A stretch of DNA of 64,000 nucleotides, from NCBI RefSeq assembly GCF_036013745.1, contig NZ_CP107880.1, positions 3,906,001-3,970,000 of the forward strand, given 5' to 3'. The notes under the pieces are model-generated. The model did no database searches and was not told where the DNA came from. It saw nothing but the letters and a program-made list of their open reading frames with translations. Position 1 is the stretch's first letter. Every line of letters starts with the position of its first letter. A program made the position numbers and the translations under genes. Below are positions 44,786 through 51,092 of the stretch, piece by piece. The stretch is from Streptomyces sp. NBC_00483 (lineage in GTDB: Bacteria; Actinomycetota; Actinomycetes; Streptomycetales; Streptomycetaceae).

Positions 44786-45715
44786 ATGTCGCAGACCGAC
44801 GAGGCACCGCGCACGGAAGCGATACCCGGCGCCGGGCTCCGCTGGTGGACGGAACTGCCGCTGATCCTCCTGGTGTACGGCGCGTACTCGGCGGGCCGAC
44901 TGCTCGCCCGTGGCGATGTGGGACAGGCCGTCGACCACGGTCTCGCGATCCTCCGGGCCGAGCAGGCCGTCCGCCTCAACCTCGAGCACCCGCTGAACCG
45001 TCTCTTCACCCGCGAACCGTGGCTCGGCGTCCCCGCGGACTTCTGGTACGCCTCGCTCCACTATCTGGTCACGCCGATCGTCCTCGTCTGGCTGTTCCGC
45101 CGCCGCTCCGAGATCTACCGCACGGCCCGCACGTGGCTGATGACCTCGACGATGATCGGCCTCATCGGCTTCGTCCTGCTGCCGACCAGCCCGCCCCGGC
45201 TGCTCGCCGCGAACCACGGCTTCATCGACACGATGGCCCACTACAGCTCGTACGGCTGGTGGGGCGGCGCGGCCAGCGCTCCCAAGGGCATGGGCGGCCT
45301 GACCAACCAGTACGCGGCGATGCCGAGCCTGCACGTCGGCTGGGCGCTGTGGTGCGGCGTCCTGCTGTGGCGGCACGCCCGCTCCCCGTACGTGAAGGCG
45401 ATGGGTGTCGCGTACCCGCTGCTCACCACGGTCATCGTGATGGGCACGGCCAACCACTACTTCTTCGACGCGCTCGCCGGGGTCGCGGCGATGGCCCTCG
45501 GCCTGCTCCTGACGAAGCCGGTGCGGCTCGTCGCGGCACGCCTGAAGGACCGGGCGGGCCTCGTGCTCGCGGGGGCGCAGGCCTCCCCTTCCGCCACGCA
45601 CGCCCCGATTGTCAGTGGAGAATGCCAGACTTCCCAGGGTGAGCGAATTCCCCGACAGCGCAAGGCAGCCGCGTCGCAGGACAGCGACGACGGGGCTGCG
45701 GCACCGGCTCGCTGA
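44786..45715 (+). CDS. PAP2/AUR1-type membrane phosphatase
   Basis: A 309-residue integral membrane protein with about six predicted helices. The PAP2 signatures are SPPRLLAANHG, QYAAMPSLHVGWALWCGVLL (His) and MGTANHYFFDALAGVAAMAL (His and Asp), which form the catalytic triad on the outer face. This resembles the inositol phosphorylceramide synthase-like (AUR1) branch found in actinomycetes, acting on lipid phosphate head groups. The last 77 bp overlap the start region of the next gene. Confidence 0.87.
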   Translation: MSQTDEAPRTEAIPGAGLRWWTELPLILLVYGAYSAGRLLARGDVGQAVDHGLAILRAEQAVRLNLEHPLNRLFTREPWLGVPADFWYASLHYLVTPIVLVWLFRRRSEIYRTARTWLMTSTMIGLIGFVLLPTSPPRLLAANHGFIDTMAHYSSYGWWGGAASAPKGMGGLTNQYAAMPSLHVGWALWCGVLLWRHARSPYVKAMGVAYPLLTTVIVMGTANHYFFDALAGVAAMALGLLLTKPVRLVAARLKDRAGLVLAGAQASPSATHAPIVSGECQTSQGERIPRQRKAAASQDSDDGAAAPAR

Positions 45716-46796
45716 ACTGCGCGGCCCCGACCATCCGCCGCGTCCGCTGGACGCCCGGGCCCTGGCCGCGCTCGCGGCGAACCCGGGCTGCCGAAGGCGG
45801 GCGCTCCTGGACGGCGCGGGGGTCGACAAGGCGCGCGTAGCGGATGCGTTGGGCTCACCGTCCTCGTTCGGCCAGTCCCAGTTCGCCCTGGCCCGCGGCA
45901 ATGTGTTCGAGGCGCGGGTGAAGTCGGACGGCGGCGCGGAGCTGCTCAAGCTGGTCCACGCGCGCGTGGACGGCACCGCGCCCGAGCCGACGCCCGATGT
46001 CGTACGGGCCCCCGACCTGTCGGCGATCGGCCCCGAGGGCCGCACGGCGCGCACCGCGCTCGCCCTCCGGGAGGCCGTCGAGTCGCCGGGGACCTGGACG
46101 TTCCTGGACCACCCGATGTTGGCGCTCGACGTGGCGGGCAGCCCGGCGTTCCTGGAGCCGGACGCGGTGGTGGTGCATCCGGACGGCAGCTGGACGGTCG
46201 TCGAGATCAAGTCGTTCCCGATGATCGACGGTGCGGCGGACGCGTCGAAGGTGGGCGCGGCGGCCCGCCAGTCGGCGGTGTACGTGCTGGCCCTGGAGGA
46301 GGTCGCGGCGCGGATGCCGGACGCGGAGGTGCGGGTCAGGGACCGGATCGTCCTCGTCTGCCCCAAGGACTTCTCGAACCTGCCGGCCGCGTCGGCCGTC
46401 GACGTGCGCAAGCAACGGTCGGTGACGCGCCGCCAGTTGGCGCGCCTGACCCGCGTGGAGGACATCGCGGCGGAGCTCCCGCCCGGCACCGTCTTCGACC
46501 CGGAGCTGCCCACGGACGAGCTGACGGCGGCGGTCGAGTCGGTTCCCGCGACGTACGCGCCGGAGTGCCTGGCCGCGTGCGAGCTGGCGTTCCACTGTCG
46601 CGACCACGCGCGCGGGGAGGGCGCGGTGACCGCGCTCGGCCGCCCCTTGCGCGCCGAACTCGGCTCGCTGACCACGGTCGACGAGGTACTCGCCGCCGCC
46701 CACGGCGAGGCGGGCGACCCGACGGACCCGACGGTGGCGGCGCTGCGCCGCGCGGCGACGCTGCGGGCCGAGGCACTCGGAGGTGCGCACCGGTGA
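45639..46796 (+). CDS. RecB/Cas4-type PD-(D/E)XK nuclease with predicted Fe-S cluster
   Basis: A 385-residue protein from the GTG at 45639; TTG 45609 and GTG 45615 are alternative starts. A CAGACT -10-like box suggests a leaderless start here. The nuclease core is EPDAVVV (Asp175) then VVEIKSF (Glu189, Lys191). Four cysteines flank it: Cys51 (NPGCRRRALLDG), then Cys310-x3-Cys314-x5-Cys320 (PECLAACELAFHCRDHA). This matches the 4Fe-4S layout of Cas4, AddB and Dna2 (one N-terminal, three C-terminal Cys). It is the first of three translationally coupled genes, ahead of an unknown protein and an SF1 helicase. It probably cuts or resects DNA. Confidence 0.82.
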   Translation: MSEFPDSARQPRRRTATTGLRHRLAELRGPDHPPRPLDARALAALAANPGCRRRALLDGAGVDKARVADALGSPSSFGQSQFALARGNVFEARVKSDGGAELLKLVHARVDGTAPEPTPDVVRAPDLSAIGPEGRTARTALALREAVESPGTWTFLDHPMLALDVAGSPAFLEPDAVVVHPDGSWTVVEIKSFPMIDGAADASKVGAAARQSAVYVLALEEVAARMPDAEVRVRDRIVLVCPKDFSNLPAASAVDVRKQRSVTRRQLARLTRVEDIAAELPPGTVFDPELPTDELTAAVESVPATYAPECLAACELAFHCRDHARGEGAVTALGRPLRAELGSLTTVDEVLAAAHGEAGDPTDPTVAALRRAATLRAEALGGAHR

Positions 46797-48391
46797 GCCT
46801 GATCAACCACCTGGCCCGGCTTGAAGCCACCCACTCCGGGCGCGCGCAGCGTACGGCCACGGTCCGGCACCGCCACCTGTCCCAGCGCCCCCTGGTGGTC
46901 GTGCCGCTCACGACGGCCGGTGAGACCGGCGCTCCGCTCGGCGCGCTCGTCGGCACCGAGCGCACGTCACCGCGTCTCCTGGTCGTCCCGCAGCCCCGCG
47001 ACCGCGACCTCCGCTTCGCGTTCCTGACGCAACTGGCCGATGAGGTCCTGCCGTACATCGACACGTACGCCACCGATGTCGAGGCCGCAGAGCGCAGCGA
47101 GGTCGACCCGGAGACCGGCAAGAAGGTCAAGGTCGAGGTCGAACTGTGCGCGGACGCCCCGCAGATGATCGTGCCGGGCCGCGCGGGCATCGAGTTCCTC
47201 CGCCTCCTCGGCCGCTCCATGCGCTTTCGCCGCACCGCGGAGCAGGACCCGGAGACTCCCTACCCCGCGCCGCCGCACGTCCCGCTCCTCGGCCGCTGGC
47301 TCACGCACTTCGGGGAGCGGTCGCGGGTCCCCGGCTCCGCCCTGCTCCTCGCGATGACGGACCTGCTGTCGCGGCACTGGGCGACGGGCCAGTCGAGCCT
47401 GGAGGACCAGCACTTGGGCGCGCTGCTCGCCTGGATCGAGGCACCGGAAGGCACCTCGGGCGCGGCGGCCGCGCTCGGCGCCGAGCTGGACCGCGACAGG
47501 CACGGGCAGCTGCTCTGCCCGCCTGCGGGCCCCGCCACGGACCCCGCGTTCGACAACAAGCTGCTCGCGCCCGCGATCGAGCGCTACGACAAGGCCCGTA
47601 CGCGCCACGCGGCCGCCGAGGACGCCGTCGAGGCGGAGGGCCGCCTCGCCGAACTGACCGCGGCCGAGCGGGAGATCAACGCCCTGGTCGAGTCCCGTAC
47701 CCGGCCCACCTGGGACGCGGTGTGGCGCGGCCTCGACCAGCTGTGCACGCTGCCCGAGGGCGCGTACGCGGCGGAGCGCTGGACCCGCGACCGCTGGTCG
47801 TTCACCGGGCACCGCGACCGGGTCCTCGCGGGCGAGCCCCCGCAGCCGCGCCGCGACGACGCGGTGACGGCGGCGAACAAGCTGGCCACGCGCGAGCGCG
47901 AGCAGGCCCGCCTGGACGCGCAGGAGGCGCTGGACGACCCGCTGGTGATGGCGGGCCGCCGCCTCTCGGGCGAGGCGTTCGCCGGTGAGGTGACCGAGGT
48001 GGTGGCGGCGTACAACGAGAAGAAGCGGCCCCGCCCGCTCGTCACGCTCCGCACGCAGGACGGACCGCGCCTCGGCGTGGGCGTGAAGGTGTACCGCACC
48101 CTCGAAGGCAAGCCGCAGACGGCCGAGTTCGTGGGTTACGAGGACGAGGGCGCCGAGGGCGCGGACGCCCCCGTCGTGCTGCGGATCCTGGACAAGATGG
48201 GGCGCGGCAAGGAGCCGGCCGAGGGCTCGCTGCCGGAGAAGGGCGAGCGGATCTGCTGGACGCTGTTCGAGCACGAGCAGCGCGGCGGCCCCAAGCTGCC
48301 GGAGCCGGAGGAGACACCGTGGACGCACGGCGGCCCGCCGGGGACGGGCGCGGAGTCGCCCGACACCGTGACTTCGGAGGACGTGCTGTGA
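46793..48391 (+). CDS. Unknown 532-residue protein between nuclease and helicase
   Basis: Starts at the GTG overlapping the nuclease stop (GTGA) and is itself followed by the same kind of overlap into the helicase. No motif I recognise. Residues 1-100 look beta-rich (TATVRHRHLSQRPLVVVPLT). A long, charged, mainly helical part covers about 245-420 (ERYDKARTRHAAAEDAVEAE; EREQARLDAQEALDDPLVMA). The final 120 residues are beta-rich (DGPRLGVGVKVYRTLEGKPQ, ILDKMGRGKEPAEG), which could be a beta-barrel. No enzyme active site or membrane segment is visible. It is probably a structural or DNA-binding partner of the flanking nuclease and helicase. Confidence 0.8.
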   Translation: MSLINHLARLEATHSGRAQRTATVRHRHLSQRPLVVVPLTTAGETGAPLGALVGTERTSPRLLVVPQPRDRDLRFAFLTQLADEVLPYIDTYATDVEAAERSEVDPETGKKVKVEVELCADAPQMIVPGRAGIEFLRLLGRSMRFRRTAEQDPETPYPAPPHVPLLGRWLTHFGERSRVPGSALLLAMTDLLSRHWATGQSSLEDQHLGALLAWIEAPEGTSGAAAALGAELDRDRHGQLLCPPAGPATDPAFDNKLLAPAIERYDKARTRHAAAEDAVEAEGRLAELTAAEREINALVESRTRPTWDAVWRGLDQLCTLPEGAYAAERWTRDRWSFTGHRDRVLAGEPPQPRRDDAVTAANKLATREREQARLDAQEALDDPLVMAGRRLSGEAFAGEVTEVVAAYNEKKRPRPLVTLRTQDGPRLGVGVKVYRTLEGKPQTAEFVGYEDEGAEGADAPVVLRILDKMGRGKEPAEGSLPEKGERICWTLFEHEQRGGPKLPEPEETPWTHGGPPGTGAESPDTVTSEDVL

Positions 48392-49755
48392 CCACGACGA
48401 CCACGCCCACAACCACGACCACCGCCCTCAGCCCGTCAGAGGCGGCCGGGCAGGCGACCGCCGCCATCCTCCGCGACACCCTGCACGGCACGGCGCGCGG
48501 CATCGTCGTCGACTCGCCTCCCGGCGCCGGAAAGTCCACCCTCGTGGTGCGCGCCGCGCTCGAACTCGCGGACGCGGGCCGCCCGTTGATGATCGTTGCG
48601 CAGACGAACGCGCAGGTGGACGACCTCGTCCTCCGCCTCCACACGAAGAACCCGGAGCTCGCCGTCGGCCGACTGCACAGCAGCGACCCGGACGCGTACG
48701 AGAAGGCGCTCGACGACCTGCCGAACGTCCGCCTGTCGACGAAGGTCGGCGACCTGTCCCCGCTGCCGATCGTCGTCTCGACGGCCGCGAAGTGGGCGCA
48801 CGTCAAGGACGTCGAGCCGTGGCCGCACGCGATCGTCGACGAGGCGTACCAGATGCGCTCCGACGCGCTGCTCGCCGTGGCGGGGCTGTTCGAGCGGGCG
48901 CTGTTCGTGGGCGACCCGGGGCAGTTGGACCCGTTCGCGATCGTCGGCTCGGAGCAGTGGGCGGGCCTGTCCTACGACCCGTCGGCCTCGGCGGTGTCGA
49001 CGCTGCTCGCCCACAACCCGGAGCTGCCGCAACACCGCCTCCCGGTCTCCTGGCGCCTGCCTGCCTCGGCGGCGCCCCTGGTCTCCGACGCCTTCTACCC
49101 GTACACGCCGTTCCGCAGCGGCACGGACGAGGGCGACCGGGAGCTGGGCTTCAAGGTGGCGTCGGACGGTTCGGGCCCGGACCTGGTCATCGACGAGGCG
49201 GCGGCCTCCGGCTGGGGCCTGCTCGAACTCCCCGCCGCGCACACGCCACGTACGGACCCGGAGGCGGTACGGGCCGTGGCCCTGGTCGTACGACGACTGC
49301 TCGACCGGGAGGGCGTCACGCGCTCCGAGTCCGGCGAGGGCGCGCTTACGGCGGACCGGATCTGCGTCGGCACCGCGCACCGCGACCAGGCGGCGGCGGT
49401 ACGGGCGGCGCTGGAGGACCTCGACGTCAAGGACGTCACCGTCGACACGGCGAACCGCCTTCAAGGCCGCGAGTTCGACGTCACCGTCGTCCTGCACCCA
49501 CTGTCCGGACGCCCCGACGCGACGGCGTTCCACTTGGAGACGGGCCGGCTCTGCGTCCTCGCGTCACGGCATCGGCACGCGTGCGTGGTGGTGTGCAGGG
49601 CCGGGGTCGCGGACCTCCTGGACGAACACCCGTCGGCGGACCCGGTGCAACTCGGGGTGACGGTGAAATTCCCGGACGGCTGGGAGGCGAACCACTCGGT
49701 CCTGGCCCGCTTGGCGGAACACCGAGTCGGCTGGTCAGGCCCCTCCGGCGATTGA
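48388..49755 (+). CDS. SF1 (Upf1/Dna2-like) helicase or ATPase
   Basis: A 455-residue superfamily 1 NTPase from the GTG overlapping the upstream stop (GTGA). Walker A is SPPGAGKST (Lys49), Walker B VDEAYQM (Asp151-Glu152), motif III FVGDPGQLDPF (about 174-184), a Q/motif IV-like SWRLPASAAPL, motif V TVDTANRLQGREFDVTVVLH and motif VI-like LASRHRHACVVV (Arg394). This is the compact AAA_11/AAA_12-type core without extra domains. The poly-Thr start (MTTTTTPTTTTT) is unusual. It likely translocates on DNA or RNA and works with the two preceding gene products. Confidence 0.88.
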   Translation: MTTTTTPTTTTTALSPSEAAGQATAAILRDTLHGTARGIVVDSPPGAGKSTLVVRAALELADAGRPLMIVAQTNAQVDDLVLRLHTKNPELAVGRLHSSDPDAYEKALDDLPNVRLSTKVGDLSPLPIVVSTAAKWAHVKDVEPWPHAIVDEAYQMRSDALLAVAGLFERALFVGDPGQLDPFAIVGSEQWAGLSYDPSASAVSTLLAHNPELPQHRLPVSWRLPASAAPLVSDAFYPYTPFRSGTDEGDRELGFKVASDGSGPDLVIDEAAASGWGLLELPAAHTPRTDPEAVRAVALVVRRLLDREGVTRSESGEGALTADRICVGTAHRDQAAAVRAALEDLDVKDVTVDTANRLQGREFDVTVVLHPLSGRPDATAFHLETGRLCVLASRHRHACVVVCRAGVADLLDEHPSADPVQLGVTVKFPDGWEANHSVLARLAEHRVGWSGPSGD

Positions 49756-50450: not shown

Positions 50451-51092
50451 ATGAGCACCGCGACGCCTCCGTACTCCCCCCACGCCCCGTCGGCTACGGC
50501 CCCTGGCGCGCGTGACCACTTCGACATCTGCGACGTCACCCCCGAGGGAGCCGCCTGGCTCGCCTCCGCCGGGGCGTACCCCCGATCCACGCTCGCCCAC
50601 TGGGAGGCGCGACCCACGGCCCCCGTCGTCCTCCCCTGCGGATCCGCCTTCGACGTGGTGAACGTGCCCGCGATCTTCGGCCGGCGGATGTTAGACCGTC
50701 TCTGGTCCGAGGGGCCCGGCTCCGGGCCCGTCGCCACGCACCGGGGCCGCATGCTCCTGTTCACCGCGCCGGGCACGGCCCAGCGCCTGCCGTCCCTGCT
50801 CCACTGGGAGGAGTGGGGCCACGCGGTGCCGCCGCTGCTGTACCACGGCGCCGGCGACGCGGTCACGGGCCCGGCCCCCACGACCCGCGCCGCGCTCCGG
50901 CCCGACCAGCGCCAGGAGTCCCGCTGGGTCGTCGCCCCCGACACCCGTCACCCCTGGCTGCCGGGACCCGAGGTCATGCGCTGGGCATGCGTCCGGGCGG
51001 CCCGCGCGAGTGCGCAGGCCGCGGTACGGATTTCGATTTTTCCTGCCCCCGATCCTGGTGCTAATGTCTACGACGTCAACCGGCGCCATTAG
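50451..51092 (+). CDS. Prim-pol-like protein overlapping a tRNA gene
   Basis: A 213-residue protein resembling the N-terminal domain of Streptomyces bifunctional DNA primase/polymerase proteins (VVLPCGSAFDVVNVPAIFGR; GPVATHRGRMLLFTAPGTAQ). The usual second acidic residue of the FD..D pattern is Asn, so activity is doubtful. It shares the C-terminal half pattern with the gene at 40867. The stop TAG (51090-51092) lies inside the acceptor/D-arm start of tRNA-Lys, and the last residues are encoded by the tRNA promoter. Function unknown. Confidence 0.7.
   Translation: MSTATPPYSPHAPSATAPGARDHFDICDVTPEGAAWLASAGAYPRSTLAHWEARPTAPVVLPCGSAFDVVNVPAIFGRRMLDRLWSEGPGSGPVATHRGRMLLFTAPGTAQRLPSLLHWEEWGHAVPPLLYHGAGDAVTGPAPTTRAALRPDQRQESRWVVAPDTRHPWLPGPEVMRWACVRAARASAQAAVRISIFPAPDPGANVYDVNRRH

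Follow-up and report, generated by a model that had tools for sequence, protein, structure and literature searches.

A Streptomyces operon that resembles a naturally split DNA2 helicase-nuclease

A 64,000-nucleotide stretch of the genome of Streptomyces sp. NBC_00483 (contig NZ_CP107880.1, positions 3,906,001 to 3,970,000; here called the window) contains three consecutive genes, A, B and C, that together look like DNA2 taken apart. We think it probable that their products are three subunits of one bacterial DNA2-like helicase-nuclease, naturally split, with the domain order kept as gene order. This reading is well supported for A, for C and for the gene order, and moderately for B. The operon had first been picked out from the letters of the window alone as a "split Dna2" consisting of a nuclease, an unknown partner and a compact superfamily 1 (SF1) helicase; this is the original prediction referred to below. 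The three open reading frames are indeed found where that prediction put them, and both junctions, at 46793 (A/B) and 48388 (B/C), read GTGA, which joins a GTG start to a TGA stop (Table 1). The idea of a split Dna2 has been strengthened by the gene order, by the apparent counterpart of the stalk and barrel in B, and by the motor-only size of C.

Table 1. Features of the A-B-C operon in the window, with examples of gene D at other loci (L numbers)
Feature	Position	Strand	Remark
Gene A, Fe-S PD-(D/E)XK (Cas4/RecB-type) nuclease subunit (predicted)	45639..46796	+	385 aa
Codon of Cys51, predicted N-terminal Fe-S ligand of A	45789..45791	+	C in 76/76
Nuclease core of A: Asp175, Glu189, Lys191 (then Gln211/Tyr215)	46161..46211	+	conserved residues
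Predicted C-terminal Fe-S ligands of A: Cys310-x3-Cys314-x5-Cys320	46566..46598	+	C in 77/77 unmasked letters each
Gene B, scaffold subunit (predicted)	46793..48391	+	532 aa; Pfam: no family above cut-off
B residues 31-322 (some rows to ~380), RNase H-like fold	46883..47758	+	like 3'-5' exonuclease domain of family-B DNA polymerases (predicted model)
B residues 385-498, beta-barrel like domain 1B of Upf1-like helicases	47945..48286	+	predicted model
Gene C, compact SF1B (Upf1/DNA2-type) helicase motor (predicted)	48388..49755	+	455 aa
Walker A of C, residues 44-50	48517..48537	+	Lys49 in 77/78 loci; remaining one masked or shifted
Gene D, examples	L103:5111-5953, L071:5002-5844, L088:4930-5805, L050:7082-7939, L185:9971-10816		directly upstream of A

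Predicted nuclease, predicted motor and the protein between them

No Pfam, NCBIfam or PADLOC family covers A; the last two gave no row at E <= 1, so A stays below the cut-off of the TM0106 family (TIGR03491) discussed below. The A sequence nevertheless has a PD-(D/E)XK core with D, E and K, a downstream Q-x3-Y motif, and four conserved cysteines that span the nuclease domain, one N-terminal and three C-terminal. The catalytic residues and the cysteine pattern named in the original prediction are at the residues it gave. Conservation was counted, leaving out gaps and masked letters, in the 78 loci (that of the window among them) where A-B-C is complete. The cysteines are invariant wherever they can be read, and the active site is near-invariant (Asp175 and Gln211 in 77/77, Glu189 in 73/77, Lys191 in 72/77), even in relatives at 20-30% identity. 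The predicted model has a PD-(D/E)XK fold of the Cas4/AddB/DNA2 type, and iron-sulfur (Fe-S) members of the Cas4/Exo5/AddB/Dna2 branch are among its top structural matches, which place A inside PD-(D/E)XK. One result counts against us: non-Fe-S exonucleases match the model as highly as AddB and Dna2 do. For this reason our confidence in the three-subunit reading was lowered to the level expressed above. Taken together, residues and model support A well as a predicted Fe-S ("iron-staple") PD-(D/E)XK nuclease, with the cluster itself predicted from its putative ligands.

The C protein matches AAA_11 and AAA_12 of Pfam, with UvrD_C_2 below cut-off at E 0.1. In a profile search against solved structures, DNA2 was the top match (4.2e-14), followed by SMUBP2 (2.9e-11) and other Upf1-group members; 3e1s, listed as RecD and which we take to be RecD2, was far weaker (2.7e-4). 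The checked motor residues are intact in 77 or 78 of the 78 loci, the exception, L066, being masked or shifted there. Because Walker A starts at residue 44, there is no room in C for a barrel (domain 1B) and stalk, and neither lies within it. The sequence evidence thus supports C well as an Upf1/DNA2-type SF1B helicase reduced to two motor domains, in keeping with the compact SF1 helicase first proposed.

The B protein had been described as an unknown partner. It is indeed a 532-residue third protein between A and C, but its predicted model gives it a recognizable architecture: an RNase H-like domain of the polymerase proofreading type, then long helices, then a C-terminal beta-barrel. In the model the first strand of the RNase H-like domain carries no acid, and the domain apparently lacks the catalytic acids. 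Behind the helices, the barrel resembles domain 1B, with other barrel folds scoring within about 1 Z. The 50 VIA rows listed for the model of B do not include DNA2, and the fold search by Foldseek alone was likewise negative for B: it ranked DNA2 (5ean) third, but at E 0.031 this match is too weak to be used. At E <= 1, B has no family in NCBIfam, TIGR03491 included, or in PADLOC. The Pfam family Caa3_CtaG was rejected for B at chance level (E 0.14). According to the available part of PMC4716839, Dna2 has a stalk and beta-barrel between its nuclease and motor domains. The split-DNA2 reading is strengthened because this region seems mirrored in B while C fits only the two motor domains. By its model, B would end in the 1B-like barrel that C lacks, a feature beyond the original prediction, and for B the reading is moderately supported.

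Homologues are numerous, with 3002 for A and 3584 for B at E <= 0.001, each among about 8000 candidates scored. In the 120 listed for each, the named ones are hypothetical or uncharacterized, apart from a few called "secreted" or "membrane" protein, and those of the listed matches that carry an organism name are from Streptomyces.

Single-chain counterparts and known systems

We surveyed 98 genomes of the class for TM0106 proteins, taking TIGR03491 above its cut-off. The model passed in 22/98 genomes, giving 23 matches, of which 19 lie in open frames of more than 1000 codons; no match was found in the window genome (G000, a single contig of 10.24 Mb) or in five other same-genus genomes listed. 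We fetched 14 TM0106 loci. A C-like helicase shares the frame in 13 of them; the other, L183, showed none and was left out of the comparison. In each of the five fusions scanned, the first half carries TM0106 and the end an IGHMBP2-type helicase (TIGR00376). Profiles of A, B and C were compared with an alignment of the 13 fused proteins (1131-1447 codons), the E-values being those of single comparisons. C aligns to their end (E 9.6e-28, probability 99.8%). A aligns to their N-terminus over the Q-x3-Y and Cys regions (E 6.7e-4, probability 27%; with their nuclease piece by itself, E 0.004 and Prob 8). The end of B aligns to the segment preceding the helicase (E 0.0012, probability 19%), and whole B falls in the middle (E 0.018, probability 3%). 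The order of the genes is thus co-linear with the nuclease - middle - helicase domain order of the single-chain proteins. Both show, for A-B-C by prediction, a Cas4-like nuclease, an RNase H-like part, a stretch before the motor and an SF1B helicase. The fusions, however, are one chain, and two of their sequences retain, within the RNase H-like part, a DxE motif that B lacks there, whereas nuclease and helicase are here encoded by three separate genes in 71 complete loci (see below) and in L048 and L049.

Several other candidates did not hold. Long frames with C-like stretches in genomes G378, G095 and G006 end in an MTES_1575-type nuclease (below cut-off in G378); they were dropped as fusions because the A and B profiles found nothing there, nor did hhalign of A and B with the G378 frame. 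In the distant loci L049 and L060 the end of C is overlapped by a gene for a TM0106-like (RNase_H_2) nuclease, at L049:4059-5753 and L060:7187-8881 (by Pfam, and for L049 also by TIGR03491). A single-sequence comparison gave no relation of the L049 protein to A or B.

The closest described layout is that of Bad from Geobacillus stearothermophilus, known here by its published description only. In the available part of that description, Bad has an Fe-S RecB-type nuclease, a conserved middle whose structure its authors call completely unknown, and an SF1B helicase (PMC7430649). It shares with A-B-C the three-part layout, a sporadic distribution and a link to a DNA modification gene, a methyltransferase gene adjoining it in Geobacilli (PMC7430649). 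Bad is one polypeptide, as against three here. The TM0106-type fusion is possibly the second class named in that paper. Eukaryotic DNA2 has the Fe-S nuclease, the barrel on a stalk and the Upf1-like 1A/2A helicase that are predicted for A-B-C, but it is a single chain with an OB domain (PMC4716839, available part) and, according to the Bad authors, is without the conserved middle domain of Bad (PMC7430649).

AddAB, RecBCD and AdnAB are multi-subunit helicase-nucleases, as proposed for A-B-C, and the Fe-S nuclease type predicted for A occurs in AddB as well. The motors in those enzymes are SF1A helicases of the UvrD type; C, in contrast, matches Upf1-like SF1B families. The defence helicases of Mokosh and PLuB share the SF1 core with C, which gave 8.3e-8 with PADLOC MkoC and 3.3e-15 with NCBIfam PLuB_AAA, the latter at 54.6 bits, far under the cut-off of 999 bits. 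By subunit match the operon is not a listed defence system in PADLOC-DB 2.0.0, which has no family for A or B. As for CRISPR Cas4, Pfam found no cas gene in ten frames flanking the operon in the window, where no CRISPR scan was made. No description of this operon was found in titles and abstract starts of the open-access literature, outside which most subscription papers lie, and in the open-access literature PLuB was not found in connection with phage.

By analogy with Bad and DNA2, the machine may work as follows. A would be its Fe-S nuclease, and C would contribute two RecA-like motor domains completed by the barrel of B. B would be the scaffold in place of the single-chain middle, with stalk-like helices and the 1B barrel following an RNase H-like domain that has lost catalysis. 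Loading would take place on single-stranded DNA, at an end, a flap or a gap; with C moving in the 5' to 3' direction, the strand would pass into the Fe-S-closed channel of A and be cut there.

Conservation of the operon

The original prediction would have been hard to sustain had the three genes not travelled together; they do. B is present in 21/148 genomes of the class: its own, 10 more from the same genus, and 10 that belong to six further genera. A further match in G006 (E 4.8e-4, one internal stop) was dropped; with it the count would be 22/148. Within the genus, B occurs in its own and all 10 other genomes listed, 106 match-less genomes lying outside that listing; in the first 98 genomes, all 6 of the same genus have it. 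Across the class, 7/81 genera drawn have B, a weak match in an eighth being set aside. A is present in 14/296 genomes of the phylum, three of them outside the class: one with a weak partial match and two with the full loci L048 and L049. These two keep the A, B, C order with 4-base overlaps at identities of 27-30% for A, 20-24% for B and 33-35% for C.

A scan of a genome collection yielded 501 relatives, of which we took the best 80 by similarity to the protein of the distant locus L048, which makes them no random sample. Complete A-B-C lies on one strand in 71/80 loci, and contig ends truncate six more. In the remaining 3/80 (two Micromonospora, one Actinoplanes) the fetched stretch contains A-B but no C. 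With script-chosen starts, B and C overlap by 4 bases in 53/71 and A and B by 4 or 10 bases in 52/71. Carriers other than Streptomyces among these best 80 include Arthrobacter and a Planctomycetales-labelled metagenome-assembled genome (MAG) contig, L059, both complete. MAG loci cut by contig ends are labelled Planctomycetota (L063), Eisenbacteria (L061) and delta-proteobacterium (L064), short contigs that may be misbinned. Pairwise distances of A, B and C correlate at 0.976-0.987, as shared descent alone would also give. A-B-C is conserved together beyond genus and class, and probably beyond phylum, a recurrence the original prediction did not include. A natural break in the operon was seen in G095, a further genome arranged like those three in A-B, with C (C1:3131940-3133235) 36 kb from A-B (3169171-3171719).

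Core-like copies, accessory copies and possible function

With its split-DNA2 look and with some extra copies beside anti-virus systems, A-B-C is probably an uncharacterised DNA-repair or DNA-defence complex. In Streptomyces it might process chromosomal DNA ends and flaps or act as a resident barrier to foreign DNA.

That it resects or trims chromosomal ends, flaps and stalled forks in Streptomyces, with no defence role and with the island copies as bystanders, is a serious possibility, if one we put a little short of even. The Streptomyces copy looks like a core chromosomal gene set, vertically inherited: besides its presence throughout the listed genomes of the genus, the window falls in a 47-tip clade of Streptomyces, two Embleya and one contig named "Actinobacteria bacterium OV320". 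Neighbours are stable as well. A PAP2 gene was found in 43/68 loci searched and a PrimPol gene in 35/68, all Streptomyces-labelled except the OV320 contig. In the window the upstream PAP2-family frame (44786-45715) shares 77 bases (45639-45715) with the predicted 5' end of A, which leaves the exact start of A uncertain; the small primase-polymerase-like Prim-Pol gene (PF09250) lies downstream of C at 50451-51092 and is kept in many Streptomyces loci. A pattern scan of 2.9 million viral contigs found no relative of A, and tblastn of phage records none of B. However, B is confined to few of the genera drawn, two separate accessory lineages adjoin defence systems, and AddAB/RecBCD-type enzymes already cover resection, as the Bad authors argue (PMC7430649, available part).

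Those accessory lineages bring in the other function. The complex, in many lineages with a further gene, D, may unwind and degrade foreign DNA, one copy having become fixed in Streptomyces; this too we regard as a live prospect without thinking it probable. The divergent second copies fall into two further clades (support 0.998 and 1.0) with eight loci, L050, L185 and L186 in one and L051, L088, L091, L120 and L071 in the other. Gene D accompanies 8/8, and 7/8 adjoin Wadjet, pPIWI-RE, SbcCD-like or restriction-type genes. On the plasmids L185 (NZ_CP108489.1) and L186 (NZ_CP027023.1), D-A-B-C is followed directly by four genes annotated in the Wadjet pattern; SbcC/SbcD-like genes lie upstream of the copy in L050 and L185. 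In L051, L088, L091 and L120 the operon and a pPIWI-RE island are divergent; the opposite flank holds HmaA (PADLOC E 0) in the first and the BPTD_3080 restriction enzyme in the remaining three. These four have Leu for Glu189 and Arg for Lys191 in A, with all four Cys and the helicase motifs kept; Lys191 is also changed in L071. Distant loci add to this. Related Schlafen-group-3 helicases, 51% identical, lie beside operon genes in L059:9814-11979 and L061:3863-5992, and UvrD-PDDEXK fusions, a type linked to defence in the available part of PMC5704561, accompany L048 and L058. The methyltransferase beside Bad points the same way.

Against defence, A and B have no PADLOC model, and Pfam found no defence gene in ten frames scanned around the window copy. 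Moreover, just eight accessory loci were covered: four are one lineage, the two plasmids carry nearly identical copies of A, and in L071, where an oxidoreductase gene lies nearby, none of the scanned frames is a defence gene.

Gene D (about 190-290 aa) lies no more than 90 bases upstream of A in 18/80 loci and on both plasmids. Its carriers are Nocardia, Actinomadura, Actinoplanes and the Streptomyces second copies, and it was not found in the window genome. The family scans made gave no family for it. Homologues of D number 1735. Most of the 120 listed are called "hypothetical"; a few bear unusual names (response regulator, ANTAR, restriction endonuclease), and one of those listed carries the Pfam number PF27469. 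The divergent copies with D may have been recruited to defence islands. More tentatively still, the trimer could be an unnamed multi-subunit defence or genome-guarding system of Actinomycetota. Here B would derive from an inactivated proofreading-type exonuclease joined to a helicase barrel. The system would have gained D, and the D-A-B-C cassette would have moved into defence islands and plasmids. One lineage would have lost the nuclease residues of A beside the pPIWI-RE island, as if the motor served other nucleases there.

It is unlikely that A and C do not associate at all, with B an unrelated scaffold and the operon simply co-expressing a nuclease and a helicase. The sequence kinship of B with the single-chain proteins is weak, as such a view would have it, but order and mostly overlapping junctions are kept in very diverged loci, and the gene order matches the domain order of the fused proteins. 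Still less likely, C would be a RecD2-like SF1B helicase needing no barrel, as the RecD2 branch, like C, is without barrel and stalk (PMC4716839, available part) and barrels are common folds, but DNA2 and SMUBP2 score far above 3e1s against C.

Under the three-subunit DNA2-like reading, thousands of Streptomyces genes that now lack names would gain a likely structure and a likely machine. The reading also suggests a fold for the middle domain of Bad, on which its authors offer none in the available part of PMC7430649. A naturally split DNA2 in genetically tractable bacteria would allow nuclease, scaffold and motor to be removed singly, and were the defence function true, the anti-phage arsenal would gain a core-genome member.

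Three records met in these searches are likely mislabelled: NZ_LT559118.1, an 11.85-Mb Nonomuraea record filed among plasmids; the D homologue P0259, named M. tuberculosis and 82% identical to an Actinomadura protein; and L067, a "Bifidobacterium breve" MAG contig with a distant operon type.

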